Source of the DNA: Terriglobia bacterium | GTDB lineage: Bacteria > Acidobacteriota > Terriglobia > UBA7540 | Direction of reading: 5' to 3' | NCBI GenBank assembly: GCA_020073545.1 | Contig: JAIQEZ010000037.1 | Span: 1-36,736, forward strand | Length of the DNA stretch: 36,736 nucleotides | In this document: piece after piece, positions 5,364 to 24,843 of the stretch | How the letters are laid out: every line of letters starts with the position of its first letter | How positions within the stretch are numbered: position 1 is the first letter of the stretch | Position numbers and translations under genes: made by a program | Notes under the pieces: generated by a model | Told to the model about the DNA's origin: nothing | The model's database searches: none | The model's input: the letters and a program-made list of their open reading frames with translations, nothing else

Positions 5364-5364
5364 C

Positions 5365-5386
5365 GTCCCCGCAGAGCGGGAATCCA
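5365..5386. repeat. REP-like dispersed palindrome (CCCGC-aga-GCGGG)
   Basis: The arms 5368-5372 and 5376-5380, followed by AATCC, give the GCGGGAATCC word also found at 31402-31411. This is the common short intergenic palindrome family of many GC-rich genomes. Confidence 0.5.
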
Positions 5387-6610: not shown

Positions 6611-8962
6611 TCAAGGCAAAACCAACTCCTGGTTGGGAGAGATGTGTGCCGTCGCATGCCCCGGCTCCCAAACCGTAACGGTCGCGGGCCGGGCTGCGTC
6701 AAACACCTTCACTTTACCGTCAGGAAGGAGTTTCACGCGAACCCTTCCGCCGCTATCCACGGAAACCCATTTGGCCTTGTTCCTGTATAGAGTCGCTTGG
6801 CCGTTGGTCGATTCTATGGAATAGGTGTCGCCGCGACAGAGAATTCCGGCGATCGAGGAATCACCCCATGGGGGAGCCCCAACCCCGACGGAACCATCCA
6901 GATCCGGCCAGAATCCGAATCCCCCCAGGATTATCGCGGCTCCGGGCATGCTCGACCATGCCTGTCGGAGGCCGAAGTCGTCCTCTAACGCTCGTCCATC
7001 GGGGTAGTACGCCGAATAGACTTCCGCCGGGGTCAGCCAGTTCCTCTCCAAGCCATATTCCCACCAGCGCAGCAAGGGATAACGCCAGTCTTCGTCCCGT
7101 CTCCACAAGCGAACGAACGCATTCACGCCGTCGAGGTACGGCCACTCGCCGGCGTTGTGGTAGGAATAGGGCAAAAAGGAGGATCGCCTGGTCTCAGCCT
7201 TGCGCCCGTAGAGGGGATTGCAGGCCAGAATGCCCCAGTCACCCAGGCGTTTGTCGACGAAGCGGGATTCCAGCGTGTCTTTTGCCGTGGCCAACAGCCT
7301 TTCAGTCTGGGAATCACTCGGAATTCCAAAAAGGGCAGTAACCAGGCTGTCGGTGGTAAGGTGGTCTTCTGCACTGCCGTCCTTGCGCCGATAGTCCACA
7401 TAGTGCCCGGCATCTTCGAGCCAGAGTTCTTTGTTGATCGCGGCCTTCGTTTGGGCAGCGCGGGCCTGATACTGCTGGGATAATTCGCTGTTGCCGGTTT
7501 CCTGGGCTATCTGGGCGGCGCAGACCAGCGCCCGATAGTAAAGGGCCTCATCGTAGGTGACGTGATGGCTCCGGAGGACCTCGTCAGCCCAGTCCCCCGC
7601 GTCGGCCTCCGGTTTTACCATCAAACCGGAACCTTCGGTATCCGTGGAGGCGAGATAGGCTAGGGCCTTCTGAGCTTTCGGCCAAGCCTCCCCCAGGACG
7701 GAGAGATCCTTGGTCCACGCCAGGTAGTCGTATAACTGCATGACGAAGAGGGCAGGGGAATCATAGTGGAACTCATTGAAAGGCTTGCCATCGAACTGCA
7801 CCGCGCTGGGAGCGCGGCCGTCGGTCTGAATGCCTCTTGCCAACAAGAGAAGATTGCTCCGCACATATTCGGGATGAAAAGGCAGGGCAAGTTGAACTGC
7901 CCAATAGGAATCGCGATAGTAAGCGCGCAAGGGCGCCCGGTAGCGAATGCCCGCAAAAAAGGCGTTGAAGTCGGATTCGGGGGCCGACTTGAAGGAAGCC
8001 AGAGCATTATCCAGCGTGGCCGTGAACATACTCTTGAGCAGGGGATCGGACACCTGCAAGGTTTCAGCGAGGGCGCGACTTCGCTCGTTGGCCGCTTGTT
8101 CCGCCTTGTCAAAATCCTGGAACGTCTGTTCGTAGGATGGGCGATCGGCCGTCACCACTACGCGGAGGTGCTGGACGGCTTCCTCGGCGCCTACTCCGGC
8201 GGTCAATGCGAACTTTTCGTGGATGTAGTTCAACTTCCGGGGGTGTAGACCACTGCCGACAGCCATGCGTCCCGGCCAATTGATGGCCCACAGCCTGATG
8301 TCAGCTTTGTGCGCCTTCCTATCGAGGCTCGTGAAAGTGAAATGGAGGAAGACAGCATTGGTCTTTTCGTCGACGAAGGCCGTGAGATGGACCTGCGCGC
8401 CACCGCGGGCCGCAGTCATCACCACCAGACCGGCACGCACCGAAAAGGCGTCGCAGTCTTTTGGGTCCACTCCGTCCAAAGAGATTCGGGTAAACCAGGT
8501 CGCGGGCAGTATGAGGTCGTCCCCGCCCACCACCGAGTAACGGACCAGGCGGAACCGGCTGTCCACACGGGCGATGGCCCGCGTGTTGGTCAGGTCGTAG
8601 GTAACGAGCGAATTGACCGGCCGGATGAGCAGCGACCCGTCGGGTTGAGCCACGGCGTGCTGAAAGGAGGGAAGCGGCGTGAGTGAGATTTCCTGCGTTC
8701 CCTCTGCCACGGTGGTCTTGGCGGGAAGATAGTTCCTGGCGGCCACGGAGACCGTTCCCTCCGTGCCCGTTGGGACCGTGATGGTTCCCCGCGAATCCGT
8801 GACGAGCTGCCGGCCGGAGACGAACTCAGTCACGATCGCCCCGGCGATGGGTGACCCGGTCACTGAATCGCGAACCGTCAACTGGGCAGAAGCAGAGTAG
8901 GCAAGAGGCGCGAAAAGAAGTGCGGCAGTGAGAGGGGCCCACAAAGGAAAGTGACGAAACAT
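6611..8962 (-). CDS. Secreted six-hairpin glycosidase-like protein with N-terminal carboxypeptidase-regulatory domain, 783 aa
   Basis: A Sec signal peptide (residues 1-27, ending YSASAQ) leads into a carboxypeptidase-D regulatory-like beta-sandwich (about 28-98: LTVRDSVTGSPIAGA...). A beta-rich domain follows, then a long alpha-helical region typical of (alpha/alpha)6 six-hairpin enzymes (YYRDSYWAVQLALPFHPEYV; DAGDWADEVLRSHHVTYDEA; SYHNAGEWPYLDG). It resembles glycogen-debranching or GH78/GH63-type catalytic domains, but I cannot place it in one family. Acidic residues in GDWADE and in the NAGEW segment are candidate catalytic residues. The ATG at 8962 is chosen over the upstream frame because AGAGGG and the signal peptide fit it. 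It is the last gene of a minus-strand glycosidase run, 52 bp after the GH31 stop. A role in trimming an oligosaccharide in the periplasm is inferred. Confidence 0.7.
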   Translation of the reverse strand: MFRHFPLWAPLTAALLFAPLAYSASAQLTVRDSVTGSPIAGAIVTEFVSGRQLVTDSRGTITVPTGTEGTVSVAARNYLPAKTTVAEGTQEISLTPLPSFQHAVAQPDGSLLIRPVNSLVTYDLTNTRAIARVDSRFRLVRYSVVGGDDLILPATWFTRISLDGVDPKDCDAFSVRAGLVVMTAARGGAQVHLTAFVDEKTNAVFLHFTFTSLDRKAHKADIRLWAINWPGRMAVGSGLHPRKLNYIHEKFALTAGVGAEEAVQHLRVVVTADRPSYEQTFQDFDKAEQAANERSRALAETLQVSDPLLKSMFTATLDNALASFKSAPESDFNAFFAGIRYRAPLRAYYRDSYWAVQLALPFHPEYVRSNLLLLARGIQTDGRAPSAVQFDGKPFNEFHYDSPALFVMQLYDYLAWTKDLSVLGEAWPKAQKALAYLASTDTEGSGLMVKPEADAGDWADEVLRSHHVTYDEALYYRALVCAAQIAQETGNSELSQQYQARAAQTKAAINKELWLEDAGHYVDYRRKDGSAEDHLTTDSLVTALFGIPSDSQTERLLATAKDTLESRFVDKRLGDWGILACNPLYGRKAETRRSSFLPYSYHNAGEWPYLDGVNAFVRLWRRDEDWRYPLLRWWEYGLERNWLTPAEVYSAYYPDGRALEDDFGLRQAWSSMPGAAIILGGFGFWPDLDGSVGVGAPPWGDSSIAGILCRGDTYSIESTNGQATLYRNKAKWVSVDSGGRVRVKLLPDGKVKVFDAARPATVTVWEPGHATAHISPNQELVLP

Positions 8963-9014
8963 GGAATCAGCCCTCTTTTCGGAGAGCGCAGCCGGCCGGT
9001 TTTGACCCCGACTC

Positions 9015-11285
9015 CTACAGCGCCCCTTCCACCGGATTCCCTTCAAACACGATCTCCCTTGTCAGATTCTCCGCGGGAAGGTTGACCTTGATGGTCCGTC
9101 GGTGAGGCGCCCGCATCTTCGACCCAGCTCGCAGGCTTACGGCTAGACGCCGGGCACGATCCTTCCAAGCGAACCTAAGCCACATTTCTCCGTCCTTCAG
9201 AAAATCAAACGTGACACCGTCGTCCTCGTAGAGCGTGAATTCGCCATCCGCGCCGGGATAGATCTTTATCATAAGTGGGCTCTCGGTCGGCTCAGCCGTA
9301 TATTGCTTGACGGGCCCGAAGGGAAGAATCGCGCCTGCCCTCACATAAAGAGGCATCGTGGCAAGATCCACGGGCCGGGAGATTTCACGAGCGCCCTCCA
9401 TCCTTTCGTTCGTCCAGAAGTCATACCAAGTCCCGCGCGGTAAGTAAAGGGTTCTGGTCTTTGCGCCTTCCTCGGTGACCGGAGCAACGAGGAGGTCCCG
9501 CCCCCACAAATACTGATCGGAGCGCACCACGGCCCGGGGATCATCATCGTAGTGGAGCCACAGGGCGCGCATGAGGGGCAGTCCCGTGTCGTGGGCTTCG
9601 CGGACCAACGTGTAGGTGTAGGGGAGAAGGCGGTAACGAAGCTCGAGGTATTTCCTGCAGATGGGTTCAATTTGCGGGTTGTGCAGTTCCTTAATACCGG
9701 GGAGGCCGCTGTTCGGACCGTATCCTTTAAGCTCGGTCGGACCGTAATCGCCTGTGTTCCACTGCCAAGGGCGTCGGAGCTTCCATGTCCGACCATGCGA
9801 CCGAAACAATGGGCAGAAGGCGCTGAATTGAAACCAGCGGGCGTAAAGCTCGCCCGTCAGTTCCGGGGTCGTAACAAAGCCGCCGGTGTCCGTTCCCCAG
9901 TAGGGCATTCCGCTGAGCCCGGTGTTGATGCCCACCGCAACTTGCGACCGCAGCGCTTCCCAGGTGGAGTCGATGTCTCCGGACCACAGCCATCCGTAAC
10001 GCTGCATTCCCGCGTAGCCGTTGCGATTCAGCGTATAAGGCCGCAGGCCTGGCCTCTCCACTTGGGGACCTTCCCAGTACATGCGATTTCGAGCGAGGCA
10101 AACCTCGGGATCAAGGGAGTCACCTTCATCAGCCCACCAGCCGTCGACACCCAGACGAAACACCTCGAGATGCTTCGACCAATAGTTCGCCGCGCTATCC
10201 GAATCCCCGGACCCGCCGGAGGCGTCAGCGGCGCGACCCTGTAAGTGTTTGGGTGGATTCACGACATGCAGCGCCAGCTTGAAGTGTTCCTTGTGCAGTT
10301 CCTCGAACATTCGCTGGGGGTCAGGAAAAACCTCCTGGTTGAAAGTGAATGACCCGTGTCCACGGTTCCAGCCCGAAGGGCAAAAACCTGTCCCTAGGTA
10401 GATCAGTACGTCGCAGGGAAGACGGTCCTCGCGGAATTTCCGGGCTTCTGACATCACCTCGTTGCGGTTCGCCAACGTTCGATGTGATTGTTGGTAACCC
10501 AGGGACCAAATGGGGGGCATGTGGGGGAACCCGGTCAGGCGGGCATATTCGGCCAGGATTTCCTGGGGCTCGTGGGAGGCGACCAGAAAGAAATCCATGG
10601 GCAGGGCCGTCCCGGACGCCCAAGGCCGGAAGCGCCCTTCGTTGGCCGTGAGATCAAAACTGCCGAAAGGAAGATGGAAGAACAGTGCCCATCCGCCTGC
10701 ACCCACCAGCCAGGGAATGGAAACTCGCGCGCCGATAGTAGCCAGGTCCGGGGTGCCTTGACCATGCTTCATGGAGTAGTCGTGCCCTCGGCGGTCAAAT
10801 TGCGGACCGCCCTCACCCAATCCGAAGACCGGGGCCCCCTGGGTAAGGAACCCGACGCTCCCGTCACTCATGTCGATCTGAAGACGCTGGAGCTCGGCTT
10901 GGTTCTGATCCCGGATGATCAACGTCAGGGGCTGGGGAAGAATCTTCAGCTCGAAGGTCCCACAGGCGAGGTTACTTTCAGCGGAGACCGACCGGATGCG
11001 GATCGGCGCCTCCCCCCCTGGCGAGGCGACCAGGACTCCGCCATCAGGGATGGGTTGCGCCTGCTCCTGGGAATTGAGGGGGAGCAGGGACACGCGAAGG
11101 GTTCGCGCGCTCACCGGAGAGATCGCGAGCTCGGCTGCTAATCCAGCCACTTTGAGGCCCGGGGTCTGAGCCGTCAATGCCGAGAAGCCCGAGCCCGTCC
11201 AGCCCGGCTTGGTCAGCAACAGCGCGCCGGCCCCGGCAGCCCCCATTCGGGCGATCGCTTTCCTTCTCGAACAGGATTTCCCCAC
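9015..11285 (-). CDS. GH31 family alpha-glycosidase (alpha-xylosidase or alpha-glucosidase type), Tat-exported, 756 aa
   Basis: GH31 enzymes are retaining alpha-glycosidases acting on alpha-xylosides, alpha-glucosides or related bonds. Domains run in the usual order: an N-terminal beta-sandwich (about 45-250, with GLGEGG), the TIM barrel with nucleophile Asp386 in GVDGWWADEGDS and acid/base Asp437 in WLWSGD, then C-terminal beta domains from about residue 620 (LYLPRGTWYDFWTNE, LYVRAGAILPFGP, LYEDDGVTFDF). The N-terminus SRRKAIARMGAAGAGALLL is a twin-arginine signal. The start is a GTG at 11285, with AGGG upstream. Only 20 bp separate it from the preceding TIM-barrel gene, so the two are almost surely co-transcribed. 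Substrate specificity cannot be read from the sequence; the neighbouring arabinofuranosidase suggests a plant-type or mixed side-chain substrate. Confidence 0.9.
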   Translation of the reverse strand: MGKSCSRRKAIARMGAAGAGALLLTKPGWTGSGFSALTAQTPGLKVAGLAAELAISPVSARTLRVSLLPLNSQEQAQPIPDGGVLVASPGGEAPIRIRSVSAESNLACGTFELKILPQPLTLIIRDQNQAELQRLQIDMSDGSVGFLTQGAPVFGLGEGGPQFDRRGHDYSMKHGQGTPDLATIGARVSIPWLVGAGGWALFFHLPFGSFDLTANEGRFRPWASGTALPMDFFLVASHEPQEILAEYARLTGFPHMPPIWSLGYQQSHRTLANRNEVMSEARKFREDRLPCDVLIYLGTGFCPSGWNRGHGSFTFNQEVFPDPQRMFEELHKEHFKLALHVVNPPKHLQGRAADASGGSGDSDSAANYWSKHLEVFRLGVDGWWADEGDSLDPEVCLARNRMYWEGPQVERPGLRPYTLNRNGYAGMQRYGWLWSGDIDSTWEALRSQVAVGINTGLSGMPYWGTDTGGFVTTPELTGELYARWFQFSAFCPLFRSHGRTWKLRRPWQWNTGDYGPTELKGYGPNSGLPGIKELHNPQIEPICRKYLELRYRLLPYTYTLVREAHDTGLPLMRALWLHYDDDPRAVVRSDQYLWGRDLLVAPVTEEGAKTRTLYLPRGTWYDFWTNERMEGAREISRPVDLATMPLYVRAGAILPFGPVKQYTAEPTESPLMIKIYPGADGEFTLYEDDGVTFDFLKDGEMWLRFAWKDRARRLAVSLRAGSKMRAPHRRTIKVNLPAENLTREIVFEGNPVEGAL

Positions 11286-11305: not shown

Positions 11306-13111
11306 TCAGGCAATGCCTGCTCGATGCTTAGCGCGCGCGATAATCTGCGCCATCACGTTCTGGTAACGCTCGAACGTGTCGTCGACCACTGTGAGGGTCG
11401 GGATGGCCAGCTCATTGAGCGATAGCGTTTCGGGATCGAACTTGCTGAATCCGGATTCGTGAACGCCGCTACTTCCGCGTCCGGGAGCGGGATGGCTGAG
11501 GTGCTGGAAGAAGCGGGCGTATTTGGTGACGGCCGCGGGGTATACAAACTCTGAAAAGGCATGATAGAGGGAAATAAAGGACATCAGCGCGTCGTAGTGC
11601 ATTTCACCGCAGCACAGCACGCCAGGGTGCTTTCGGGCGAGATCCGCAACGAGCTGTTGCGTGCCCACATGGGTGTCCGCCTTGGTGTTGTTTTCCCAGC
11701 CACCCGCGATGTCGAGGAAGTACGCGTCAGCAGGGTAGCGACTGAGAACATCGTCGATTCGAGAAACCAGCCACTCACGCCAGGAGCCGACCCCGACGTT
11801 CATGTAGGGCATCCAGCCTTCCATGTGCCGGTCGTTGTCCCAGTCCACCCAATTCAGGTAAAAGGGATCACCATCAATCTGTGCCGTCGTGGCGTCCGCA
11901 AACTTCGAGAACTCGGGGAGACGTTCGTTGGCTGAGTTGATCCCGAACATGGGCATCATGTGGAAACCCATCTGCCGGCCGGTTTCCAGGAGTGCCTTGA
12001 AGCCCGCTTCGCCGCCCAGGCGCGGCTCAGGCTGGTAGAGCGGGTAATTCCAGTAGTAGCGGCCATCCCAAGCCGCAATGAAAACCAGGACGCGCGCGGC
12101 AGGAATCTGGGAAGCGACCCAGCGCAGGATGGTTTGCATCTTGGCGTAATCGTTAAAAATATATCCCGTCCAGTGCATGCCATGAAGGGAGACAGCGAGC
12201 GCAACGTTGCGGAGCCAATCCGGAACGTCCTCACGTTTCTCCCAATCAGGAATGTTGAAGGCTCGCTCCACGTGCTTGAAATGGGGCTGAAACGCCGCCT
12301 CCTGCGAAGCCACCGCACCGGCACGCCAGACGGGGCTCTCCAGCGTGTTACTCTTCTTCCAGCCCTCCCTTTCGTAGACCAGTTCGGCCCGGTAAGAGCG
12401 TTCGCCGGGTTGGAGATAGAACCGGTTCGCCCGAACCGCCTGGTTGAGGGCGGACAAAAAGAAAAACTCGTTGTCTCCTTGTTGAATGACCAGGAGCGGC
12501 GTGTTCAGTCCTCGCGCGATGAAAAGCGCACCTCCACCAAAGGGGTAGCCAAAGAGTAATTCGTCATCTTTGGGGTCAAAGAAGCGCTGGCCGCCGGCTG
12601 AAATCTTTCCGCGCGGAACGCCCCGAACAATCGCCGCGATCGACTTGACGGGCTGTTCCATTTCGATGCGGGCATCCCATTCGATGAAAGTCCCGTTCTT
12701 GTGGAACCGAGCGCGCAGCCGGCCGGGAGCTTTTTCCTGACCCCCCGCCCAGACGAAGCCGGAGCAGGAAACCTCCAATCCGTCTGACTTGTCCTCGACG
12801 GTCATTTGCTCACGATCCAGCGCGTAGGTATTCTCAAATGTGTACACGCGAAAAGAAAACTGCAACCCCGCAAATTCCACCGAGGGCTCGGGAAAATCGA
12901 AGCTGAACTTCATGAAGCTTTCACCACGTGGAGGAACGTAAACCCCACTGCTAGAACTCAGGGGAAGAACGCGATCCGGCTTGGCGGGATTCCCGGGCGC
13001 GGAGGCGGAAGCTCCCAACGATGCGGCCATCGCCGGGACAGGAAGAATCGAGCCGGTTCCCGCAACCACGGCACTCTTCAGTAGTGTACGCCGGGAAATC
13101 TTGTCACCCAT
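11306..13111 (-). CDS. Tat-exported TIM-barrel putative glycoside hydrolase of unknown specificity (DUF6259-like?), 601 aa
   Basis: The N-terminus MGDKISRRTLLKSAVVAGTGS is a twin-arginine signal. The ATG at 13111 is fixed by AGGAGGAAC before it, so the longer open frame upstream is not used. Residues 55-280 form a beta-rich domain. Residues 300-600 look like a TIM barrel: ARVLVFIAAWDGRYYW, GFKALLETGRQMGFHMMPMFG, then PADAYFLDIAGG (Asp467) and VLCCGEMHYDA (Glu503). The Asp after one strand and Glu after the next are plausible catalytic residues of a retaining glycosidase. I do not recognise an established GH family; resemblance to DUF6259-type proteins is tentative. It sits between GH127- and GH31-type genes, 131 bp after the first and 20 bp before the second, so a carbohydrate role is likely. 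Confidence 0.65.
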   Translation of the reverse strand: MGDKISRRTLLKSAVVAGTGSILPVPAMAASLGASASAPGNPAKPDRVLPLSSSSGVYVPPRGESFMKFSFDFPEPSVEFAGLQFSFRVYTFENTYALDREQMTVEDKSDGLEVSCSGFVWAGGQEKAPGRLRARFHKNGTFIEWDARIEMEQPVKSIAAIVRGVPRGKISAGGQRFFDPKDDELLFGYPFGGGALFIARGLNTPLLVIQQGDNEFFFLSALNQAVRANRFYLQPGERSYRAELVYEREGWKKSNTLESPVWRAGAVASQEAAFQPHFKHVERAFNIPDWEKREDVPDWLRNVALAVSLHGMHWTGYIFNDYAKMQTILRWVASQIPAARVLVFIAAWDGRYYWNYPLYQPEPRLGGEAGFKALLETGRQMGFHMMPMFGINSANERLPEFSKFADATTAQIDGDPFYLNWVDWDNDRHMEGWMPYMNVGVGSWREWLVSRIDDVLSRYPADAYFLDIAGGWENNTKADTHVGTQQLVADLARKHPGVLCCGEMHYDALMSFISLYHAFSEFVYPAAVTKYARFFQHLSHPAPGRGSSGVHESGFSKFDPETLSLNELAIPTLTVVDDTFERYQNVMAQIIARAKHRAGIA

Positions 13112-13242
13112 CAGTTCCTCCTCTTGAGGGTCTGGTTGAATCGCGCGCTGGGAACCAGACCCTCGCAGGAAACACGCTTGCACCCCGCCTGGGATTATCG
13201 CTCAGTGATCCCGCGGGCAGGGCGGGGAAGTCGGCTGGGTCT

Positions 13243-15198
13243 TCAAACCGCAGCAGAAGTCGTTTTCCAGTACACCGCGTACCTTTCTCCAAACAGCTTA
13301 TAGAGCGGGATCAAGGTGAGTTTTTGCGCCTGCCCTACGGTTTGGAAGGTCAGAGCTTGGTCGGAGACCGGTTTCAGCCAACCCACCGGATCATTCGGGC
13401 TGGTGGCGATGGCGGGAACAGGAATCGGGTCACCGCTGGGGGCGGTGTCGTACCCCGAATAGAACATCGACTTGGTGAGACCCTCGGTTCCCAGTCGCCC
13501 GGCTAGCACCAGCGGTCCATACATCGCGGCCTGTAGAGTGTGGTCATCAGGCATGGTTTCGATACGGAGGCTCATGGGCAGGCTGACCTCCACTCGGTCA
13601 CCTTCTTTCCAGGTGCGGTTCAGCGTCAAGTAGCTCGAGGGGCTTGAGAACGCGCCAAGGTTCGTTCCGTTCAGCTTGACCATGCCCCCGCGGGTCGCCC
13701 AGTAGGGAATTCTGATGTTGAGGGCCAGTTCGGTGGGCTTATCCGCGTGAACGACCAAGGTGGCGCCTTCTTCCTCGGGGAAATTGGTTTGCTGTTCAAG
13801 GCGCAAGCCCTTTTCAGGCCAATTCACCTCCGAGGCGATGAACAGATTCACGAAGATGCCGTGGTCATCGTGGAAGTAAATCGAGTCGGCAGTCTTGGCA
13901 AACTCTTCGACACCCGTCCCGGTGCAGCACCAGAAGGAGTCGTAAGTAGTATTGAAGTACTTCCAGTATCCGGACGCGAGCGGGAGGAAGTAGCCCATTC
14001 CGCTGTCTTGCAGGTTCTGTGTTCCCAGCCGGCTGTTGAAGAGCGTGCGCTCGTAATAGTCCATCACGCCCGGGTCGGCTGTCCATCCGAAGATGTGGCG
14101 TGCCAGTTTGAGCATGTTATAGCCGCAGCAGCATTCCTCGGTGAGCTTGCCCAGCTCCGTCGAGAGCTTTCCGGGCGGCGTGCGCCAGAACTCGTCGTTG
14201 CTGGTGCCTCCCGTGCAATAGATCCGCTCGCCGGTGACCTCCTGCAGGAAATAGGAGGCAATGTCGTGATAGCGAGGTTCACCGGTGAGTTCGTAGCGAC
14301 GGGCGGCGCCGATGACTTGCGGGATGTGGGTATTGGCGTGGATTCCCTTCAGCTCGTCGCGATGTTCAGCCAGCGGGTCAAGGAACATCGCCTTCTCAAA
14401 TCGTCCCGCCAACGCCATGTAATGCGGCTTGCCGGTCACGGCAGAGAGGTTCCCGAGCACCTCGTTCATGCCGCCGAATTCCGTTTGCAGAATCCGCTGC
14501 ATGTGCTCGTCACTGATGCTCTCCTGCCAGTGCCAGACCCACCCCGCCATGCCCTCCGCTACCGAGAGCGCCTGGTCGTTCCCACAGTGGACGTACATGT
14601 CCAGGAGGCCGGCCATGATCTTGTGATAGGTGTAGAAGGGAGCCCAGACCCTCCGGCCCTCGCGCAGCCGGTCGAAGAGCTCTTCGGGGAAGGCGCTGAG
14701 GTAGCTGTTCTTCAGGGCCTTTTGGCAATTGGCCAATTCGCTGACCAGCGCATTGCCCTTATCCTTCAATTCACTATCCCCAGCGCTGGCATACATCAAT
14801 GCGCAGGCGGACAAGTAGTGGCCTCCGGTGAAATGACCGCGTAATTCGCAGTCGGGTTTTTCCCATCCTCCCAACGGCTCAGCCGAGGAAGGGATCCCCG
14901 CATTCACGCGAAAGGTATGGAGAAGCCGGTCAGAGGGGAGCAGGTGGAGATAGCGCCGGTTCGCTTCCAGGGCATCCTGAAACACGCCCTTTCGCAAGCG
15001 GACTTGGGTCAAGGGGAAGGGCTCGACTTTCCCTAAGATTTTCTGCTTGCTTGCTGGCTTATTTCTCATTCCGGGCGTCATCGCGGCAGTGACCTGCGCG
15101 GGACTAGCCAACAGCTGATTGGGCAGTAGGGCCGCTCCCGCTACCGCCGCTGCTGTAGAAACAAACTGCCTTCTGGTTGGTCGATTAAGATTTGTCAT
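13243..15198 (-). CDS. GH127/GH146-type (DUF1680) beta-L-arabinofuranosidase, Tat-exported, 651 aa
   Basis: This matches the DUF1680 family, whose characterised members (HypBA1, GH127; and GH146) release L-arabinose from beta-L-arabinofuranosides of hydroxyproline-rich glycoproteins or pectic side chains. It has the (alpha/alpha)6 barrel followed by beta-sandwiches. The zinc and catalytic set Glu-x-Cys...Cys-Cys is visible as Glu355, Cys357 (in TEECCCGYNMLKL) and Cys424-Cys425 (in FWCCTGTGVEEF). The start ATG at 15198 has GGGAGGAA upstream and opens a twin-arginine signal (RRQFVSTAAAVAGAALL). An unusual run of three cysteines (356-358) replaces the usual E.CN.YNM. It is the first gene of the glycosidase run and lies 208 bp after the APC permease stop, so its promoter probably lies in that gap. 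Confidence 0.9.
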   Translation of the reverse strand: MTNLNRPTRRQFVSTAAAVAGAALLPNQLLASPAQVTAAMTPGMRNKPASKQKILGKVEPFPLTQVRLRKGVFQDALEANRRYLHLLPSDRLLHTFRVNAGIPSSAEPLGGWEKPDCELRGHFTGGHYLSACALMYASAGDSELKDKGNALVSELANCQKALKNSYLSAFPEELFDRLREGRRVWAPFYTYHKIMAGLLDMYVHCGNDQALSVAEGMAGWVWHWQESISDEHMQRILQTEFGGMNEVLGNLSAVTGKPHYMALAGRFEKAMFLDPLAEHRDELKGIHANTHIPQVIGAARRYELTGEPRYHDIASYFLQEVTGERIYCTGGTSNDEFWRTPPGKLSTELGKLTEECCCGYNMLKLARHIFGWTADPGVMDYYERTLFNSRLGTQNLQDSGMGYFLPLASGYWKYFNTTYDSFWCCTGTGVEEFAKTADSIYFHDDHGIFVNLFIASEVNWPEKGLRLEQQTNFPEEEGATLVVHADKPTELALNIRIPYWATRGGMVKLNGTNLGAFSSPSSYLTLNRTWKEGDRVEVSLPMSLRIETMPDDHTLQAAMYGPLVLAGRLGTEGLTKSMFYSGYDTAPSGDPIPVPAIATSPNDPVGWLKPVSDQALTFQTVGQAQKLTLIPLYKLFGERYAVYWKTTSAAV

Positions 15199-15406
15199 GG
15201 GTTCCTCCCTCCAAAACAACAAGATGATACCGCATCGTTGCGGAACAAAGGGTAGTTAGTTGTTCGAACCGAAGGGCGATTTGAGTAAGGGAAATCCTTC
15301 ATGGCCCTCCCGCTCCGTTTCAGAAACGCAAAAGCAACATCAACGTGCTCCCTTACACCGACGCGCGCTGCGAAGCGTCCGGTCTAGGCCGCTCCGTGTC
15401 GGTCTT

Positions 15407-16903
15407 TCAGCCCGCCCACAGCCGCCGCAGCCGGTAAACCGGCAACCCGCAAGCCACGATCAACAGTCCCGGCCAGGTCGTATAGGGGCGGTAAATGAAC
15501 AGGCAAAGAACTACGACCGTCGCGCCCAGGATGTACGCGGCCGGGACCACCGGGTAGCCCGGCACTTTGTAGGGCCGGTCCGCTGCGGGCCGTGTGGCTC
15601 GCAGCCGGAAAAGACCGGCTATCGTCAGGACATAAAAAATCAGAGCCGCGGAAATAACGTAATCCAGCAAGTTGCTATAGACGTTGCCGTACTTGGCAGT
15701 AGAGGAATCAAAGGTTCTGGGCAGAACCAGGGCTGCGGCCCAAACCCCCTGCGCCAGAAGTGACCAGCCTGGAACCCTCGCCCGGTTCAGGCGCCCGGCG
15801 GGAGCGAAGAACAAGCGGTCGCGAGCCATGGCGTAGTAGGCGCGCGACCCTGCCAGCACGAGGCTGTTGATGCATCCAAACGTGGAGATCATGATGGCGA
15901 CGGCCATCAGCGTCCTGCCCAAGCCGGGAAAGATCGCCTGCAACGTCGCAGTGCCCACGCGATCGTAGGGAGCATCCTGGATCGCAGGGAGTGGCAAGGT
16001 TGCGAGGTAGGCAACGTTCGCCAGCACGTACAGCGCAATCACTGTCAATGTCCCCAGCCCCAACGCGAGAGGAAGAGTCCGGCGTGGATTCTTGACCTCG
16101 TCTGCCGCGAGGGTCACGTCGTGCCAGGAATCGGCAGCGAAGAGCGAACCTGACTGGGCGACGCAAATCGCCGCGAGGAGCCCCAGCGTCGTAGCTACGT
16201 CCAATCCCGGGACGCCTGAACGATGGAGGTGAGCAGTCCAGAGGTGTGCGAAGTTCGCCTTTACCGCGGCGGCGTTCCAGCCCAGCCCGAGCCCAACCGC
16301 GATGAGCCCCAGCAGCGCTCCAACCTTGGCCGCCGTGAAAAGATTCTGGACCCATTTCCCATACCCCAATCCTCGGCTATTGGTCCAGGTCAGCAGGGCA
16401 ATAACCAGAATTGCCACGAGCTGAGAAGTTGATAGTGAAAGTGCGTAGCTGGGAGACACGTGAAGCGGAGGAATTAGATAACGGTCTTCCGCGACTGCCG
16501 GCCAAAGCACCCCGAGAAACCTGGCAAAGGCCACTCCGACCGCGGCAATGGTTCCGGTTTGGATGACGGTGAAAAAGGTCCAGCCGTAGAGAAAGCCCCA
16601 CAGAGGTGAGAAGGCCTCGCGCAAGTACACGTACATGCCGCCGGTACGCGGCATCATCGAGGCGAGTTCGCCGTAGGAAAGCGCGGCGGCAATGGTCAAT
16701 GCACCGGCGAAAACCCACGCCAGCAGCAGACCGCCCGAGCTGCCAATCTCGCGTGCCATGGCGGCAGGCACGATGAAGATGCCAGATCCGATCATCGCGC
16801 CGGCCACGATCATCACGCAGTCAAACAGGCTGAGGCCCTGGACAAAGCCTGTCGCGGGAGGCGTTGTTGCTCCGGGCACGACCGAATGGGTTGAGACACT
16901 CAT
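15407..16903 (-). CDS. APC-family amino acid permease, 498 aa
   Basis: The product has 12 predicted membrane segments. The TM1 motif AGAMIGSGIFIVPA is the unwound substrate-binding signature (G-S-G) of the amino acid-polyamine-organocation superfamily. The SRAYYAMARDRLFF segment in the loop after TM8 is also typical. Members exchange or import amino acids with protons across the inner membrane; the substrate is not predictable here. The start ATG at 16903 gives MSVSTHSVVPG before TM1. It lies between the TonB receptor, with a strong terminator separating them, and the GH127-type gene. If it belongs to the locus functionally, the imported glycan may come with peptide or amino acids, for example from a glycoprotein. 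That link is an inference. Confidence 0.88.
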   Translation of the reverse strand: MSVSTHSVVPGATTPPATGFVQGLSLFDCVMIVAGAMIGSGIFIVPAAMAREIGSSGGLLLAWVFAGALTIAAALSYGELASMMPRTGGMYVYLREAFSPLWGFLYGWTFFTVIQTGTIAAVGVAFARFLGVLWPAVAEDRYLIPPLHVSPSYALSLSTSQLVAILVIALLTWTNSRGLGYGKWVQNLFTAAKVGALLGLIAVGLGLGWNAAAVKANFAHLWTAHLHRSGVPGLDVATTLGLLAAICVAQSGSLFAADSWHDVTLAADEVKNPRRTLPLALGLGTLTVIALYVLANVAYLATLPLPAIQDAPYDRVGTATLQAIFPGLGRTLMAVAIMISTFGCINSLVLAGSRAYYAMARDRLFFAPAGRLNRARVPGWSLLAQGVWAAALVLPRTFDSSTAKYGNVYSNLLDYVISAALIFYVLTIAGLFRLRATRPAADRPYKVPGYPVVPAAYILGATVVVLCLFIYRPYTTWPGLLIVACGLPVYRLRRLWAG

Positions 16904-17134: not shown

Positions 17135-20100
17135 TCAGAATATGATCTTCAAGCCTAACTGAATGTTTCTTGCCGGGAAGACCGCCGTGGACCTTCCGAA
17201 GGTGCCGGACGTCATGCTTCCATCGGGGTTTTGCAGGTTCACGTTGTTGAACAGGTTGAAGAACTCACCCCGGAGCTGCATGGTCGCGGCTTCATCCTTC
17301 CAGAACCACGGGATCTTGGTGTTCTTGACGATGTTGAAGTCGGTGTTGATGTATCCTGGACCGATGTAGGCGTTGCGGCCGAGGTCTCCTTCCTGACCTA
17401 GGCTCGGTGCTGGGAAATCGGACCTCTGGAAGATACCCGTCAGGAACTGCTGTTTGGTCCCACTCTTGAAGGTACCGAACGAGGGAGTTGTGGGATAGTC
17501 GTAGTTGAACCCGTCGGCATTGTAGTCGCAGCCAGTATTGCCAACTACTTGGCGAGTGGGGTCAGTATCGGGCAGGTCATATACCGGGATGAACGACTGG
17601 TCACAGAAAACGTTGTAGGCAGTGCCTTTCTGGAGGATGACCACGGCGCCCGCCTGCCATCCGCCAAGCAGCCTGCTCAGCGCCCCCGGCCCTTTCGGAC
17701 CAGGGAAATCGTACACGAAGCTGGCAGCCACTTTGTGCCGGACGTCGAAGTCGGAAAGCCCGCGGTTAAGGTTCAAGTTGGACATATCCACGATGTTCAA
17801 GCCCGTTCCGAAACTGCTGGCCGTATCGATGGCTTTGCCGACCGTGTAAGCGGCCTGGAAATCCAGACCGCGGCTGAATCGCTTTTTCACGCTGAAGTTG
17901 CCGCCCTTATAGGTTGAGATGCCATTGGACTGGCCGTAATCAATGCCTCCAAAGCTCGAATTCAGCCGATCCAACTGGACGCCGTACACAGGGGCGCCGG
18001 CGTCGTTCGTGCCGGTTTGGACCACAGGTCCCAGCATGTCGCCGTCGAAGCGGTTGACGTCATAGCCTTGGTATAGCTTGCGACCGACGGAACCGACGTA
18101 GTTGCCCTCTACCACCCAGTTGTTGGTGAAGGCGTACTGCACGCCGAGGAACCAGTTTTCAGCATACTGAGTGCGGAGGTTGGGGTCCCACGGTTGGATC
18201 CCGGCCTTCGCCCCGATGAGGCTGCCGTTCGGATTGACGCCGACCGTAATGCCCGTCATCGCCGGGTATCCGTAAGGGGGACTCGTCGACGTGCCCAGAC
18301 CATATACGACTTGTGGCCCGGAGATGAACGTATTTGCTGTGACAGTTGCGAACATGGGAAGCTGGACACAGCAATCGTGGAAGAACTGGCCGGCAGCCCG
18401 GTCGTAGAAGACTCCTATGCCCCCCCGGACTGACATCTTGCCCTTTCCTGTCGGGTCCCAGGCGATGCCGATACGAGGAGCGAGATTGTTCTTGTCAGCG
18501 GCGATGTATGGGGATGCCTGGATCATCGAAGCATTAGTAATCCGCGAGACGAAGTCGCTCCCGCTGCCGAATACGATGCGTGAAAACATGTCCTTGGGTC
18601 CGTTGTAGCCGGGTACTTGGAACACCTCATAGCGGAGCCCCAGGCTCAACGTCAGGTTGGACTTGACCTTCCAGTCATCGTTCACAAATAACCCGAAACG
18701 CTGAAAGTTAGGCGTGAAGTTGTAGGAGATTTGTTGCCCGGTCTGCGGATTGTACCCGTAGTGGCTCTCCTGGTAGGGGCTGTCAAGGGCAAAATCGAAC
18801 AGATTGAGGAAATCGTAGAAGTACCGGCTGTACTCACCTGCGAAATTCGACCCGCCGCCCCAACCCATATCATGCCCGAGGTTCCCGCCGAACTTGAACG
18901 CGTGCTTCCCGCGGTTCCAGCTCAGCACGTTCCGCCACTCGCCATTGGTCTGCATGAAGGTCGGACCGCTGAATCCCATTCCGTAATTGGTGATGCCTGG
19001 AACCGTGATTTGGGGAATTTCAGGATGCGCAACCGCTACATCCACGTCTCCCCGCACCCGGACGTACGTAAGCGACCCTTCGTAAAGCAACGAGGACGAG
19101 AAGAGGTGGGTAAAGTTCAGATTCAGGTAATTCGAATATTCCGGCTCGGGCATGGTGAACGCCGGATAGATCGAGGTTGAGAAAGTCGCTTGCCGGCTCG
19201 TCCTGTACCAGTTGCCGTATAGCCGGTTAGCGCCCGTGCCAAAGTTCTGGTCGAGCCGGATATTCCACTGGAGGCCGTTGCGGGGAATCGTCTGGCTGGA
19301 CGAGATGAACTGGGTCATTGGGAAGTTGCAGGCCAAATCCCCAATGGGCGTCGTGATCGTTTCACTCCCGGTGCAAGTGCTTCCCGACACAGACCCCGCG
19401 GTGGACGCAGTCCCCCCGAGAATCCCCACGGGCAGGAAGCTCTTCGCTATGAAGGTGCCGATGTTGTTGGGATAATTCGCCGTCAGGAGATTGATGAAAT
19501 CCGGCGTGAGCACGGTGGCTGAGGTGGTTGTTCCGGAGCCCGACCGCAGGAAATCCATCGAACCGAAGAAGAAGGTGTGGTCCTTGCGGATGGGCCCGCC
19601 CAAACTCCAGCTGCCTTCATTGCGCCGAAAGACGGGAATCTTGTCGAGCGAGCCGTCGGCGCGCACGATGTTCTGGGACTGGAAAATGTTTCCCGCCGTC
19701 AGACGATTGTTGGTGTGGAAGTAGCCCATAGTCCCGTGAACGCCGTTGGTTCCCGACTTGGTGACGACGTTGGTGACGGACGAGGAGTTGCGTCCGTACT
19801 CGGCCGAAAAGTTGTTGATCGAGACGCGCAGCTCCTGGACCGAATCGGCGTTGGGATTGACGTTGGTGACGCCACCGCGCGGGCTGCCGTTGGCGCTCGC
19901 CGAATCAATCAGGTAGCTGTTCGACTCCGGGCGCTGGCCGTTGGCCTGGATGTTTACCCCGTACTCAGCGCTGAAGATGTCGCCTGAGGCCTGCGCATAG
20001 GCCTGCCCTCCGCCCGCAGGCAAACCGACGATGCCCGCCGTTAGGACGACGAGCGAGTAGAAGTTCCGGCCTACCATGGGCAGGTTCGCCACGCGCGTTT

Positions 20101-20524
20101 CGTTAATCTGCGCCGAGACTCTTGCCTGGGAGGTCTCAACCGCAGGCGGCGCCGCCGTGACCGTCACTTCGGTCGAGGCGGTTCCCAGTTCCAGGGTGAT
20201 ATTGACCTGCTTGGTCTGCTTGCCTTCCAGCCGGATGTTTTGTTGAACCGTGGTCTTGAACCCCTTCGCGCTCGCGGTAATCTCGAACAAATGAGCGGGG
20301 AGAGAGGGAATGTTGTAGTTTCCTGCTGAGGACGTTTGCACAGTTCGTGTGATGCCCGTCTCCACGTCCTTGGCCACTACTGTCGCGTCGGGCACCAGGG
20401 CGCCCGAGGGGTCGCTGACCGTCCCCTCGAGAGCGCTTTCGAACTGTGCCCAGGCGCTCAGGGAAGAGAAGACCAGTAGAACTAACAGGGCTACGAGCCC
20501 GATAAGGCTTCTTCGCATACTCAT
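17135..20524 (-). CDS. Oar-like TonB-dependent outer-membrane receptor with carboxypeptidase-regulatory domain, 1129 aa
   Basis: Signal peptide MSMRRSLIGLVALLVLLVFSSLSAWAQ is followed by a carboxypeptidase-regulatory-like domain (about 28-110, GTVSDPSGALVPDATV). A plug region follows (about 115-270, with NLPMVGRNFYSLVVLTAG), then a long beta-barrel ending NIQLGLKIIF with the terminal Phe used for barrel assembly. This arrangement is the Oar/CarboxypepD-TonB type that acidobacteria carry in many copies, used for uptake of large substrates such as oligosaccharides or peptides. ATG 20524 is chosen because GGGAGGAA precedes it by about 9 nt; the longer frame to 20578 has no site. It has its own near-consensus promoter and terminator. 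No SusD partner is present. Position next to four glycosidase genes supports a glycan substrate, which is inferred. Confidence 0.9.
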   Translation of the reverse strand: MSMRRSLIGLVALLVLLVFSSLSAWAQFESALEGTVSDPSGALVPDATVVAKDVETGITRTVQTSSAGNYNIPSLPAHLFEITASAKGFKTTVQQNIRLEGKQTKQVNITLELGTASTEVTVTAAPPAVETSQARVSAQINETRVANLPMVGRNFYSLVVLTAGIVGLPAGGGQAYAQASGDIFSAEYGVNIQANGQRPESNSYLIDSASANGSPRGGVTNVNPNADSVQELRVSINNFSAEYGRNSSSVTNVVTKSGTNGVHGTMGYFHTNNRLTAGNIFQSQNIVRADGSLDKIPVFRRNEGSWSLGGPIRKDHTFFFGSMDFLRSGSGTTTSATVLTPDFINLLTANYPNNIGTFIAKSFLPVGILGGTASTAGSVSGSTCTGSETITTPIGDLACNFPMTQFISSSQTIPRNGLQWNIRLDQNFGTGANRLYGNWYRTSRQATFSTSIYPAFTMPEPEYSNYLNLNFTHLFSSSLLYEGSLTYVRVRGDVDVAVAHPEIPQITVPGITNYGMGFSGPTFMQTNGEWRNVLSWNRGKHAFKFGGNLGHDMGWGGGSNFAGEYSRYFYDFLNLFDFALDSPYQESHYGYNPQTGQQISYNFTPNFQRFGLFVNDDWKVKSNLTLSLGLRYEVFQVPGYNGPKDMFSRIVFGSGSDFVSRITNASMIQASPYIAADKNNLAPRIGIAWDPTGKGKMSVRGGIGVFYDRAAGQFFHDCCVQLPMFATVTANTFISGPQVVYGLGTSTSPPYGYPAMTGITVGVNPNGSLIGAKAGIQPWDPNLRTQYAENWFLGVQYAFTNNWVVEGNYVGSVGRKLYQGYDVNRFDGDMLGPVVQTGTNDAGAPVYGVQLDRLNSSFGGIDYGQSNGISTYKGGNFSVKKRFSRGLDFQAAYTVGKAIDTASSFGTGLNIVDMSNLNLNRGLSDFDVRHKVAASFVYDFPGPKGPGALSRLLGGWQAGAVVILQKGTAYNVFCDQSFIPVYDLPDTDPTRQVVGNTGCDYNADGFNYDYPTTPSFGTFKSGTKQQFLTGIFQRSDFPAPSLGQEGDLGRNAYIGPGYINTDFNIVKNTKIPWFWKDEAATMQLRGEFFNLFNNVNLQNPDGSMTSGTFGRSTAVFPARNIQLGLKIIF

Positions 20525-20866: not shown

Positions 20867-21484
20867 CTCTTTTTTTTGACCCCGGTAATATCTTTCAGCT
20901 ATGGGCGCGAAGCAGTTTAGAAGCAAGGGCTTAGGTCCCCTCTGGGGGTCCGCCGGGGATAAATAATGATAGCGATTACATTTCTTGCCAAGCTCGGGGG
21001 CCTTCCGCGATTGCAGAAAACCGGCTGCGGTCACCGCCCTGGAAACCAAGCGGTTCGGCATGCCTTGCGTGAGGATGTGCCCCGGCAAGGGTTTCAGAGC
21101 CACGCCCCCCAGGGAAGGGGATTGCGCCTCCCGAGCATTAGCGTTTCTGGTCCTGTACGAAACGTGGGGGGGGAAAGTCCCGCCACGGCAGCTACTTCCC
21201 CCTAAGTTTAAGAGGGAGATGATACCCCCCCACGTGATAGAGTGCGCTGGCACGAGGCGCAGCATAGAAGCGCCGTTTGTGAGTTGTCAAGGCATGGTGC
21301 AGTTTGATACAGTTTCGAGCGGCGCGAAGCGGCCCAGCATGCCGAACGCAACCTGTAACCACGGGTAGCAGTGTCGGCCGGTCGACGGGCGTCATCCCCT
21401 GTGGAGGGCCTATGCCGTGCAGCCGTCCGTTGCACGCGGTCGTCGGACGGGTGGCAAACGGGCCCTGGCAGCGAGGGAAGGCCC

Positions 21485-22786
21485 ATGGAAGCAAGATCTG
21501 AGTCGGACCGGACACCCAATCCGCAAAGAGATACCTCGCCCCTTGATACACTTCAGACCGCGGCAATCCTCCGTGAACTGGAACGAATCCTGAAGAGTCC
21601 CTCATTTCGGACGAGTAAGCGCTGTCAACAGTTCCTTTCCTGTGTCGTTCAGCATAGCCTGGAAGGACACACTGAGCTTTTGAAGGAACGAAGCATCGGA
21701 GCGGAACTCTTTCAGCGCCCTATTAGCTACGCCACAGGGGAAGACGGAGTGGTCCGCGTGTTGGCCAGCGAGGTACGGAAGCGGCTGGCACAGCACTATC
21801 ACGAGCGAGCGGGTTCGTCGCCGGTGCGCATTGAGCTTCCGGTGGGCGCCTACGTGCCGGAGTTCCATTGGAATCCGGATGCGCCTCCGATGGATCTCGA
21901 AACGCCTCACCTGGCCAAGAATCCCAGCAAGCTCCGGGTTCTGACCATGACAGCGCTCGGCCTCGGCATTGTGCTGGTTGTTGTGGTGGTCACGACCCGC
22001 GTTCGTTCCGGAAGGCCGCCGGAGTCCGCTCTCGACCAATTCTGGTCCCCGGTTTTTGCCACTTCGCAGCCCGTCCTGATCTGCCTGGCGAAACCGGCGC
22101 TCTATCGACCATCGCCGGAGCTTTACCAGAGGTACTCAAATACCCATCCGGAGGCTTTCCAAACCGAAGTGGAGCGGTGGAACGAACTGCTTCCCCTGGA
22201 CCCGAATGAGAAGCTGCTGTGGCGGGACGTGATTCCCTTCCCTGAATTTGGCGTGGCCGTGGGGGACGCACGTGTGGCGGCCGGGCTTTCCGCCCTGTTC
22301 GCCCGGATCAATAAGCCGAGCCAAGTCAGGATCGGCAACAACTACTCGTTTGAGGACCTGCGCAACTCTCCTGCCGTGCTGGTAGGAGCCTTCAATAACC
22401 GGTGGACACTGCAAATGACTGCCAACTTGCACTTCACGTTCGCGGAAGGCGACAGCAAGGGGCCCTTCCGGATCCAGGAGCAAGGCCCCTCCGGAAGGAT
22501 GTGGTTCCCTAAATGGGCTCCCCAAGGTCGGGCCACCGAAGACTTCGCGGTCGTTACCAGACTACTGGACTCCAAGACAGGCCAGTTGCTGATCACCGCG
22601 GCGGGAGTCGCCGCCAATGGTACGCAAGCGGCAGGAGAGTTCATTTCCAGCGAAGACTTTCTGACAGAGTGCCTCCGCACCGCACCGCCGGACTGGCAGA
22701 AGAAGAATCTGCAGGTGGTCGTGCAGACCACTGTGACCGAATCAGTCGCTGGCCCCCCTCGCGTCGTCGCCACGTACTTCTGGTAG
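21485..22786 (+). CDS. Membrane-tethered regulator-like protein: cytoplasmic N-domain, one TM, exported domain of unknown function, 433 aa
   Basis: Residues 41-128 match a domain pattern frequent in acidobacterial regulators and adenylate-cyclase-like proteins: F..S..C.QFL..VV...L.G....LKE..IG..LF.R...Y....D..VRV.A...R..L..HY, ending VRIELPVGAYVPEF. One membrane helix follows (about 152-171, VLTMTALGLGIVLVVVVVTT). Residues 180-433 form an exported domain (QPVLICLAKPALY; VLVGAFNNRWT; FAVVTRLLDSKTGQLLITAAGVAANGTQAAGEF) with no function I recognise. The topology recalls ToxR/CadC one-component regulators, though DNA binding is unproven. The ATG at 21485 follows GAGGGAAGG. It is transcribed divergently from the TonB receptor over 960 bp, so it is a candidate regulator or sensor for that locus. 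Confidence 0.65.
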   Translation: MEARSESDRTPNPQRDTSPLDTLQTAAILRELERILKSPSFRTSKRCQQFLSCVVQHSLEGHTELLKERSIGAELFQRPISYATGEDGVVRVLASEVRKRLAQHYHERAGSSPVRIELPVGAYVPEFHWNPDAPPMDLETPHLAKNPSKLRVLTMTALGLGIVLVVVVVTTRVRSGRPPESALDQFWSPVFATSQPVLICLAKPALYRPSPELYQRYSNTHPEAFQTEVERWNELLPLDPNEKLLWRDVIPFPEFGVAVGDARVAAGLSALFARINKPSQVRIGNNYSFEDLRNSPAVLVGAFNNRWTLQMTANLHFTFAEGDSKGPFRIQEQGPSGRMWFPKWAPQGRATEDFAVVTRLLDSKTGQLLITAAGVAANGTQAAGEFISSEDFLTECLRTAPPDWQKKNLQVVVQTTVTESVAGPPRVVATYFW

Positions 22787-23165: not shown

Positions 23166-24776
23166 ATGTCTAGGATTTTTCCAGTGTGCCCACGAAGAGG
23201 TTTCGGCAAGAAGATCGGGGAGTGTTTGGGAGCCGCGCTGCTTCTTGGCGGGTTGGCAGGCACCGCCCGGCCTCAGGCTTCCCGGCCCTCGCCAGTTTTC
23301 ACGCAGGTCGAGTCTTACATCCAGCAGCGGCAGTACGACCGCGCCATAGCGCTCCTCCAGGAGATTATGGAGAAGTCCCCCAGCGACCCCGTGGCTCACA
23401 ATCTGATGGGGATTGCACTCACCTCGTCCGGGAAGCCGGAAGAAGGAAACGTTCACTTCCAGGCTGCCCTTAAATCGGACCCCGAGTTCTTTCCTGCCTT
23501 GAAGAACTTGGCCCTGAACGAGCTGGCCATGCACCGCCTGGAAGCGGCTCGAAGCCACTTTGAGCAAGTCCTGGAGCATGCTCCGCAGGACCCGGTTGCC
23601 CATCTGTCCCTGGGGGAGATCCATTACGCGAAGCGCGAATTCGGCCCGGCGGTTGACGAGTACCTCAAGAGCGCGGGCCTGTTCGAGAGGGACCCGCGCA
23701 TGGTCCTCCGTTTCGCCAGAAGCTGCTTCGAATCAAACCAGGGCCAAAGGGCAGCGGAGGCATTGGAGCACCTGAGCCCAGGCGCCGACGGCAGGTCTCA
23801 TTTCCAAGCCGGCGTGATGCTGGCCCAACTGGAGAAATACCCTTCCGCCGCCCGCCAATTCGAGCTGGCCAAGAAGGACTACCCTGACCCGTATGAGGTG
23901 GGGTTCAACCTGACGTTGGCTTACGTGAGAAGCCTGAACTATCCCGCCGCGATTCAAGCTGCGCAGGAGCTGATTGCGCAGGGCTACCGAAAAGCCGAGT
24001 TGTATAACCTCCTGGCGGAGGCGTACGAACACAACAATCAGACCATCGAAGCCTACGATGCTTTGCGTACGGCGACTCAGATCGACCCCCGGGATGAGAA
24101 CAACTATCTTGACCTGATGGCGCTCGGCGTCGACCACGCCAATCTCGAGCTGGCGGTAGATGTCGCCAATATTGGTCTGCGGAACATTCCAAACTCCTAC
24201 CGGTTGATCATGCAACGGGGCGCCGTGAGGGCTTTTCATGGGCAAATCACCCCCGCCCTCGAAGACTTCGAGGCAGCGGCAAAACTCGAACCCAAGCGGG
24301 ACTTGCCCTATTTCGGTATGTGCATGGCGCTGATGCAAAAAGACCAGACCCCCCAAGCCGTAGAAATTGCGCGTCAGAGGTTGGCGATCAGCCCGGACGA
24401 TTATCTCTTGCTCTATGCCTTGGGCGAGATTCTTAGCCGATCCGGCGCCTCGAGTGGACACGAGGAGGAATCCGTGCAACTTCTGGAACGGTCTATCCGT
24501 TTAAAGCCAGATTTTGCCACGGCGCGCGCGGCGTTGGGAAAAGTCTACCTCAGGCGCGGCGAAGACGACCGCGCACTCGTAGAGCTCGAGAGAGCCCTCC
24601 AGCTTGATCCTACCGACCTCACGCCGTGTTACCAGCTTGCCCAGATCTATCGTCGAAAAGGGGACAAGGAGCGAGCCGCCGAGCTCTTCGCCAAGTTCGA
24701 GAAATTCCGGGACGAGGATCGCGAGAGACACATCAACCGCAACTTACTCAAGCTTCTTCGCGAAGGGGAAAAGTAA
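23166..24776 (+). CDS. Secreted tetratricopeptide-repeat protein, 536 aa
   Basis: A basic N-terminus and hydrophobic stretch (KKIGECLGAALLLGGLAGTARPQA) form a likely signal peptide. From about residue 48 to 520 the protein consists of roughly a dozen 34-residue TPR units, for example AHNLMGIALTSSGKPEEGNVHFQAALKSDP and ARAALGKVYLRRGEDDRALVELERALQLDP written in part. It ends in a charged helix. TPR arrays are protein-interaction scaffolds, and no enzymatic domain is present. The ATG at 23166 follows GAGGAG. The next TPR gene starts 67 bp after its stop on the same strand, so they likely form a two-gene operon. In acidobacteria secreted TPR proteins often accompany TonB-receptor loci; a role in envelope assembly or substrate handling is a guess. 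Confidence 0.8.
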   Translation: MSRIFPVCPRRGFGKKIGECLGAALLLGGLAGTARPQASRPSPVFTQVESYIQQRQYDRAIALLQEIMEKSPSDPVAHNLMGIALTSSGKPEEGNVHFQAALKSDPEFFPALKNLALNELAMHRLEAARSHFEQVLEHAPQDPVAHLSLGEIHYAKREFGPAVDEYLKSAGLFERDPRMVLRFARSCFESNQGQRAAEALEHLSPGADGRSHFQAGVMLAQLEKYPSAARQFELAKKDYPDPYEVGFNLTLAYVRSLNYPAAIQAAQELIAQGYRKAELYNLLAEAYEHNNQTIEAYDALRTATQIDPRDENNYLDLMALGVDHANLELAVDVANIGLRNIPNSYRLIMQRGAVRAFHGQITPALEDFEAAAKLEPKRDLPYFGMCMALMQKDQTPQAVEIARQRLAISPDDYLLLYALGEILSRSGASSGHEEESVQLLERSIRLKPDFATARAALGKVYLRRGEDDRALVELERALQLDPTDLTPCYQLAQIYRRKGDKERAAELFAKFEKFRDEDRERHINRNLLKLLREGEK

Positions 24777-24843
24777 GGCTTCCGGAGCGAGGCCCGCTTC
24801 AATCCACTCGTGGTCGGAGGGGGCGCGCTGCGAGGAGCGATCT

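Follow-up and report, generated by a model that had tools for sequence, protein, structure and literature searches.

We analysed a 36,736-nt contig of a Terriglobia bacterium (JAIQEZ010000037.1; the whole stretch is referred to as the window), in which a gene for a membrane-tethered regulator, P0001, lies head to head with a gene for a TonB-dependent receptor. The features of this divergent pair were as follows.

17135..20524, minus strand: divergent Oar-like TonB-dependent receptor with CarboxypepD_reg and OMP_b-brl_4 domains (Pfam PF25183, E 3e-128)
21284..21313, plus strand: promoter-like element TTGTCA-18-TACAGT with direct repeats CAAGG / GCAGT / ACAGT, a candidate operator (alignment to the related locus L032, shared motif)
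21473..21481, plus strand: ribosome-binding site GAGGGAAGG of the P0001 gene (from the sequence; GAGG is also present in L032)
21485..22786, plus strand: membrane-tethered regulator gene P0001, 433 aa (open reading frame, full-length relatives, dN/dS)

The P0001 gene ran from an ATG at 21485 to a stop ending at 22786, exactly where an earlier sequence-only reading had placed it, and its coding nature was backed by the nearest relative, which was 81% identical across the entire length (dN 0.11, dS 0.56 for the whole gene). The dN/dS values against this relative were 0.045/0.72 for the N-terminal domain (N-domain) and 0.095/0.58 for the exported domain, and the ratio against L032 was about 0.2. 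Relatives were found across Terriglobia and beyond, with full-length identities of 81, 66, 61 and 53% and down to 33-34%. P0001 is a real coding gene under purifying selection, and chance was excluded for the gene and its divergent layout because both are conserved across many Acidobacteria. The P0001 sequence had no match in Pfam, NCBIfam or PDB and its domains were therefore named from structure and context. Three stretches that had looked conserved in the sequence-only reading did fall inside conserved blocks of the alignment of relatives, but only some of their residues were invariant: W307 alone in NNRWT, R359 and very nearly T365 in TRLLDSKTGQ, and G374, T380 and A383 in AGVAANGTQAAGEF. 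Outside these stretches the invariant residues of the exported domain included W187, D353 and W404. The domains of P0001 are listed below.

21557..21877, plus strand: cytoplasmic N-domain, residues 25-131, predicted OmpR/PhoB-type winged helix (structure prediction, structural matches, weak Trans_reg_C matches in relatives)
21746-21805, plus strand: predicted recognition helix, residues 88-107 (structure prediction)
21824-21871, plus strand: predicted wing strands, residues 114-129 (structure prediction)
21938..21994, plus strand: single transmembrane helix, residues 152-170 (hydropathy, AF2 helix 149-174, charge bias)
22022..22783, plus strand: predicted exported alpha/beta domain, residues 180-433 (structure prediction, VIA fold comparison)

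The N-domain was folded alone with 17 relatives, giving a model with a pLDDT of 88.5 and a pTM of 0.81. Numbered from the start of the fragment at residue 25, the model showed helices at 21-35, 44-52 and 65-83 followed by strands at 90-93 and 102-105, which is the order of a winged helix. In VIA structural comparison the best 11 rows were all OmpR/PhoB-type DNA-binding domains at Z 6.1-7.2 (RstA 7.2, SaeR 7.0, GlnR 6.9, RpaA 6.3, PhoB 6.3 and ArlR 6.3), a range below 8 in which scores can reflect a common arrangement. A list headed throughout by one family is unlike what unrelated matches give. A Foldseek search with the N-domain alone returned nothing significant (best E 0.8). Pfam scanning of 51 relatives gave weak Trans_reg_C matches in 7 (best E 8e-4), with any other family matched by at most 2, and PF00486 Trans_reg_C matched neither the whole of P0001 nor, at E 5, its N-domain. 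When its profile was compared with that of Trans_reg_C proteins from the same genome, only the recognition-helix segment aligned, and weakly (22.7% probability, P 9e-4). We infer that the recognition helix corresponds to D-x-V-V-R-V-x-A-x-x-x-R-K-R-L and the wing to V-x-I-E-L-P-x-G-x-Y-x-P-x-F. The fold model, the structural matches and the seven Trans_reg_C relatives thus give the DNA-binding fold suspected in the sequence-only reading moderate structural support as a putative OmpR/PhoB-type wHTH, for which P0001 itself has no significant sequence match.

The single helix that had been proposed to join a cytoplasmic and an exported domain was borne out by one strong hydropathy peak at 152-170, and almost every relative likewise had one. 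The AF2 model of whole P0001 (pLDDT 76) placed a helix at 149-174 and a separate alpha/beta domain from about residue 180. Lysine and arginine were commoner before than after the membrane helix among the relatives (31 to 10), and from this charge bias we infer the membrane orientation. VIA matches of the exported-domain model reached Z of about 8-10.7, at roughly 3-3.9 A across 111-163 residues. They were headed by the N-domain of GH67 (1mqq; Z 10.7, 2.9 A over 122 residues) and included GH115 (10.5), the cellulose export protein BcsB (10.1), GH84 (9.8) and an archaeal S-layer anchoring domain (9.2). Pfam, including GH67N PF03648 and GH20b PF02838, gave no match to the exported domain, and hhalign against GH67N and GH20b profiles from the same genomes was not significant (P 0.025 and 0.12). 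The domain had earlier been called novel; this held for its sequence but not for its predicted fold, which resembles the non-catalytic N-domains of GH67, GH84 and GH115 and BcsB. Such a predicted fold would not by itself be proof of sugar binding. The exported domain occurred in 47 of 396 acidobacterial genomes with up to 7 scored copies per genome, the Acidobacteriaceae being a group whose genomes reach 7 or more, and in two fetched sets a recognisable N-domain was present in 53/53 and 19/20 of the open reading frames bearing it.

The P0001 gene was separated by 960 bp from the gene on the opposite strand that had been read as a TonB receptor and that is Oar-like by Pfam. A receptor adjoining a single-pass membrane protein is also the arrangement of a FecI/FecR-like sigma/anti-sigma transducer system, an explanation that we find barely credible here, as the cytoplasmic part of P0001 resembles a wHTH and not an anti-sigma domain. 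In Pfam scans no sigma factor was found among the scanned window genes, the receptor had no STN domain and P0001 had no FecR domain.

Pairing was surveyed in 83 N-domain open reading frames from relatives, 53 of which had a P0001-type exported domain, and was counted in the 49 of these family members whose upstream sequence extended for 1.3 kb or more. An Oar-like receptor was divergent within 1.3 kb in 33/49 and within 2.6 kb in 40/49, and about a third of the family members had no close divergent receptor. Each of the Terriglobia genomes had no fewer than 25-36 scored matches to Oar-like receptors, from up to 146 candidates. As 29 candidates were scored in most genomes these per-genome counts are lower bounds, and the background was therefore drawn from control DNA of the same genomes, where 4 receptors per 260 kb, in regions chosen by hand and not randomly, gave an expected pairing of about 1%. 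The observed pairing was about 60-70 times this background (binomial 3e-54, or 2e-31 if receptor density were five times higher). A replication on 20 loci of additional genomes, some of them in families beyond the class, placed the receptor within 1.3 kb in 11/19 and within 2.6 kb in 14/19. Distances between regulators co-varied with distances between their receptors (Mantel r 0.42 for 40 pairs and 0.48 for 31 pairs, 0/5000 permutations each), a correlation to which shared ancestry contributes. The pairing counts and the co-variation support the main claim of the sequence-only reading, that this family is tied to TonB receptors.

Such pairing could also come from an old gene order that was passed on vertically with no functional link, and since related genomes were sampled the cases are not fully independent. 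This account is nevertheless very improbable: the divergent layout was kept by regulators as diverged as 26-40% identity and in genomes outside the class, it recurred in several paralogous regulator-receptor pairs of a single genome (G038, G021), and TPR or propeller versions of the same N-domain chassis do not have it. At one locus (L035) two diverged family members, 2614-3858 (plus strand) and 4152-5369 (minus strand), lay tail to tail, each with an outer divergent receptor.

The intergenic DNA between regulator and receptor was poorly alignable between the window and L032, apart from TTGTCA-N18-TACAGT, which was conserved at 21284-21313. Motif discovery in 32 intergenic regions returned GTcAAGT..GttACgGT (score 86.9 against 64.6 +/- 2.9 in shuffles), which can be read as direct repeats recurring every 10 bp. 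Three repeats exactly 10 bp apart (CAAGT, ACnGT, ACAGT) were present in L035, L036 and L037, and the window copy, GGTGCAGTTTGATACAGT at 21296-21313, was imperfect with spacings of 11 bp and then 10 bp. Direct repeats about one helical turn apart are typical for OmpR/PhoB-type domains. Generic promoters were a possible confound, and the motif was therefore tested against 498 upstream regions of other genes. With relatives above 45% identity excluded from training, 6/33 held-out regions scored at P<0.05 (Fisher 9e-9 against this background). In new genomes the motif scored at P<0.05 on the regulator-sense strand in 6/19 (Fisher 6.5e-5) and on the other strand in 1/19. This recurring repeat in the shared intergenic DNA is a candidate operator. 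Two other kinds of element were rejected: the receptor side had a further conserved block (AACGACCCAAGACG) that was common to L032 and absent from other relatives, and the relatives lacked the inverted repeats seen at 21162/21225 and 21420/21444.

The motif overlapped the -35/-10 of the regulator promoter, almost solely on the regulator-sense strand, and autoregulation is therefore as well supported by it as receptor control. The N-domain may then bind DNA while P0001 acts as a repressor or mere autoregulator, with the receptor as a passive neighbour. We consider this improbable, given that receptor pairing and co-variation extend across many families of the phylum.

The receptor was followed on its own strand by a run of genes that included several glycosidases.

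15407..16903, minus strand: APC-type permease downstream of the receptor (Pfam)
13243..15222, minus strand: GH127 beta-L-arabinofuranosidase-type enzyme of the receptor-side gene run (Pfam)
11306..13183, minus strand: 625-aa protein with no match in the Pfam scan, within the receptor-side glycosidase run
9015..11285, minus strand: GH31 glycosidase of the receptor-side gene run (Pfam)
6611..9046, minus strand: glycosidase matching MGH1-like, GH116 and rhamnosidase families, receptor-side run (Pfam)

Further right the window had another GH127-like gene as well as an MFS sugar transporter, and by these annotations (GH31, GH127, GH116/MGH1-like, MFS sugar transporter) it is a glycan locus. Among 57 receptor-side neighbours in relatives were GH31 (4), GH84 (3), GH130 (3), GH123_N (2) and GH67 (1) proteins, together with 3 GDSL esterases and 8 TPR proteins. 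The 57 control proteins had no GH family among the 25 families listed, which include every family with at least 2 members. At L059 (G046:C142) a GH67 alpha-glucuronidase gene, 1970-4201, was directly divergent to the regulator and overlapped the receptor gene by 4 bases, so that a sensor resembling a GH67 N-domain in predicted fold lies beside a GH67 gene. Downstream of P0001 the window had two long TPR proteins on the plus strand, 23166-24776 and 24604-26562, whose open reading frames as called overlap by about 170 bases.

The same N-domain was also found with other exported parts. Eight of the 9 receptor-paired N-domain proteins that had no P0001-type exported domain carried two malectin domains.

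L118 (= G000:C195), L064, L102, L109, L110, L113, L116 and L117: malectin siblings of P0001, with the same N-domain and layout

One of these, L118 (8275-9870, minus strand), is the source genome's only other N-domain gene, and it lies divergent to an Oar-like receptor. N-domain proteins bearing TPR or propeller domains had a divergent receptor within 1.3 kb in 0/8 (Fisher 2.4e-4). As 8/9 of these receptor-paired proteins were malectin versions and 0/8 of the TPR or propeller versions had a close divergent receptor, carbohydrate-type sensors go with receptors. Two further N-domain proteins of about 417 aa, L099 (8796-10046) and L098 (2379-3629), had an exported part that matched neither the P0001 profile nor Pfam, and L099 adjoins a receptor. 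This exported part is possibly a third sensor type.

The signal sensed by the exported domain of P0001 is probably a carbohydrate; domain swapping, the most telling observation, together with glycosidase neighbourhoods supports, but does not prove, a glycan ligand. P0001 could instead regulate the receptor operon while sensing something other than sugar, such as receptor occupancy by contact, envelope stress, pH or a peptide. Regulator-receptor co-variation would fit direct contact too, the exported fold is also like that of the archaeal S-layer anchoring domain and BcsB, and Oar-like receptors need not import sugars. Some neighbourhoods had TPR proteins and GDSL esterases instead of glycosidases, and in the window an APC permease, of the amino-acid type, adjoins the receptor. 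We nonetheless rate non-sugar sensing as rather doubtful, because the same chassis bears malectin domains at receptors and because the neighbourhoods of the window and its relatives are rich in glycosidases.

We consider it fairly likely that P0001 is a one-component, probably glycan-sensing transmembrane regulator that activates the neighbouring receptor and glycosidase operon. A ligand, most likely an (oligo)saccharide, would be imported by the divergent Oar-like receptor or released by the enzymes of its operon, would bind the exported domain in the periplasm and would alter the oligomeric state of P0001. With its tethered winged helices paired on the direct repeats between the two genes, P0001 would bring polymerase to one of the divergent promoters or to both. 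The receptor and its glycosidase operon, and possibly the regulator gene as well, would thereby be switched on rather than repressed. CadC/ToxR-type regulators are thought to act in a similar manner (for CadC, PMC5430869).

The predicted wHTH, the single helix and the exported C-terminal domain would place P0001 with the ToxR/CadC-type transmembrane transcription regulators (TTRs), which likewise combine in a single protein an N-terminal cytoplasmic OmpR/PhoB-type wHTH, one membrane helix and an exported C-terminal sensor. Unlike them P0001 has a wHTH too divergent for Pfam, an exported domain with no known sequence relatives and a pairing with TonB receptors, and no ToxS-like partner was seen beside the gene. 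A survey found TTRs somewhat enriched in Acidobacteriae (PMC10269533) and relied on Pfam DNA-binding models, which do not recognise P0001, and it would therefore miss this protein. The exported domain is absent from curated libraries as well, so that Pfam-based surveys of membrane regulators omit the family. For sugar sensing the working analogues are SusR and ChiS/TfoS (PMC11633381, PMC11856585), in which, as in the P0001 model, a periplasmic sugar is sensed and a transporter or glycan-response operon is controlled. These belong to different phyla, and their likeness to P0001 is one of working mode in the proposed model. The hybrid two-component systems (HTCS) of Bacteroidetes polysaccharide utilisation loci also combine periplasmic glycan sensing and DNA-binding output with an adjacent TonB receptor. 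HTCS have kinase and receiver domains, and P0001 was rejected as a member as Pfam found neither a histidine kinase nor a receiver domain in it. The GH67, GH84 and GH115 N-domains and BcsB share the predicted fold of residues 180-433, whereas P0001 has no detectable sequence relation to them, has no catalytic domain and has a DNA-binding domain attached. The malectin siblings share the N-domain, the layout and the divergent receptor of P0001, with two malectins in place of the GH67N-like domain. A literature search with partial journal coverage, which counts as weak evidence, returned no description of the P0001 family or of its link to Oar-like receptors, and the searched literature gave neither the regulation nor the imported substrates of Terriglobia Oar-like receptors. 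The TTR class is known; the P0001 family, with its sequence-novel exported domain and its receptor pairing, would be new within it.

A P0001-type sensor beside a receptor names a regulator for it and gives a handle on the receptor substrate through the exported domain, and head-to-head pairing offers a testable answer to how soil Acidobacteria choose among dozens of receptors. In a broader reading, on which our judgement is evenly balanced, there is a phylum-wide modular acidobacterial system in which a Pfam-invisible OmpR-type chassis carries interchangeable carbohydrate-type sensors and every copy governs the Oar-like receptor and glycosidase operon that lie head to head with it. If so, the sensor would be either a glycosidase N-domain that is non-catalytic and has become a sensor, or a tandem of malectins, and the system would be to Acidobacteria what SusR/HTCS control is to polysaccharide utilisation loci elsewhere.

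One further glycosidase-related gene was present at the contig edge of the window, where in an open reading frame at 19-1824 (plus strand) part of a type II/IV secretion ATPase (PF00437, residues 7-92) was joined to a GH3 enzyme. The GH3 part was without most of its N-terminal domain, and the open reading frame is an unusual fusion or else the product of an assembly join.
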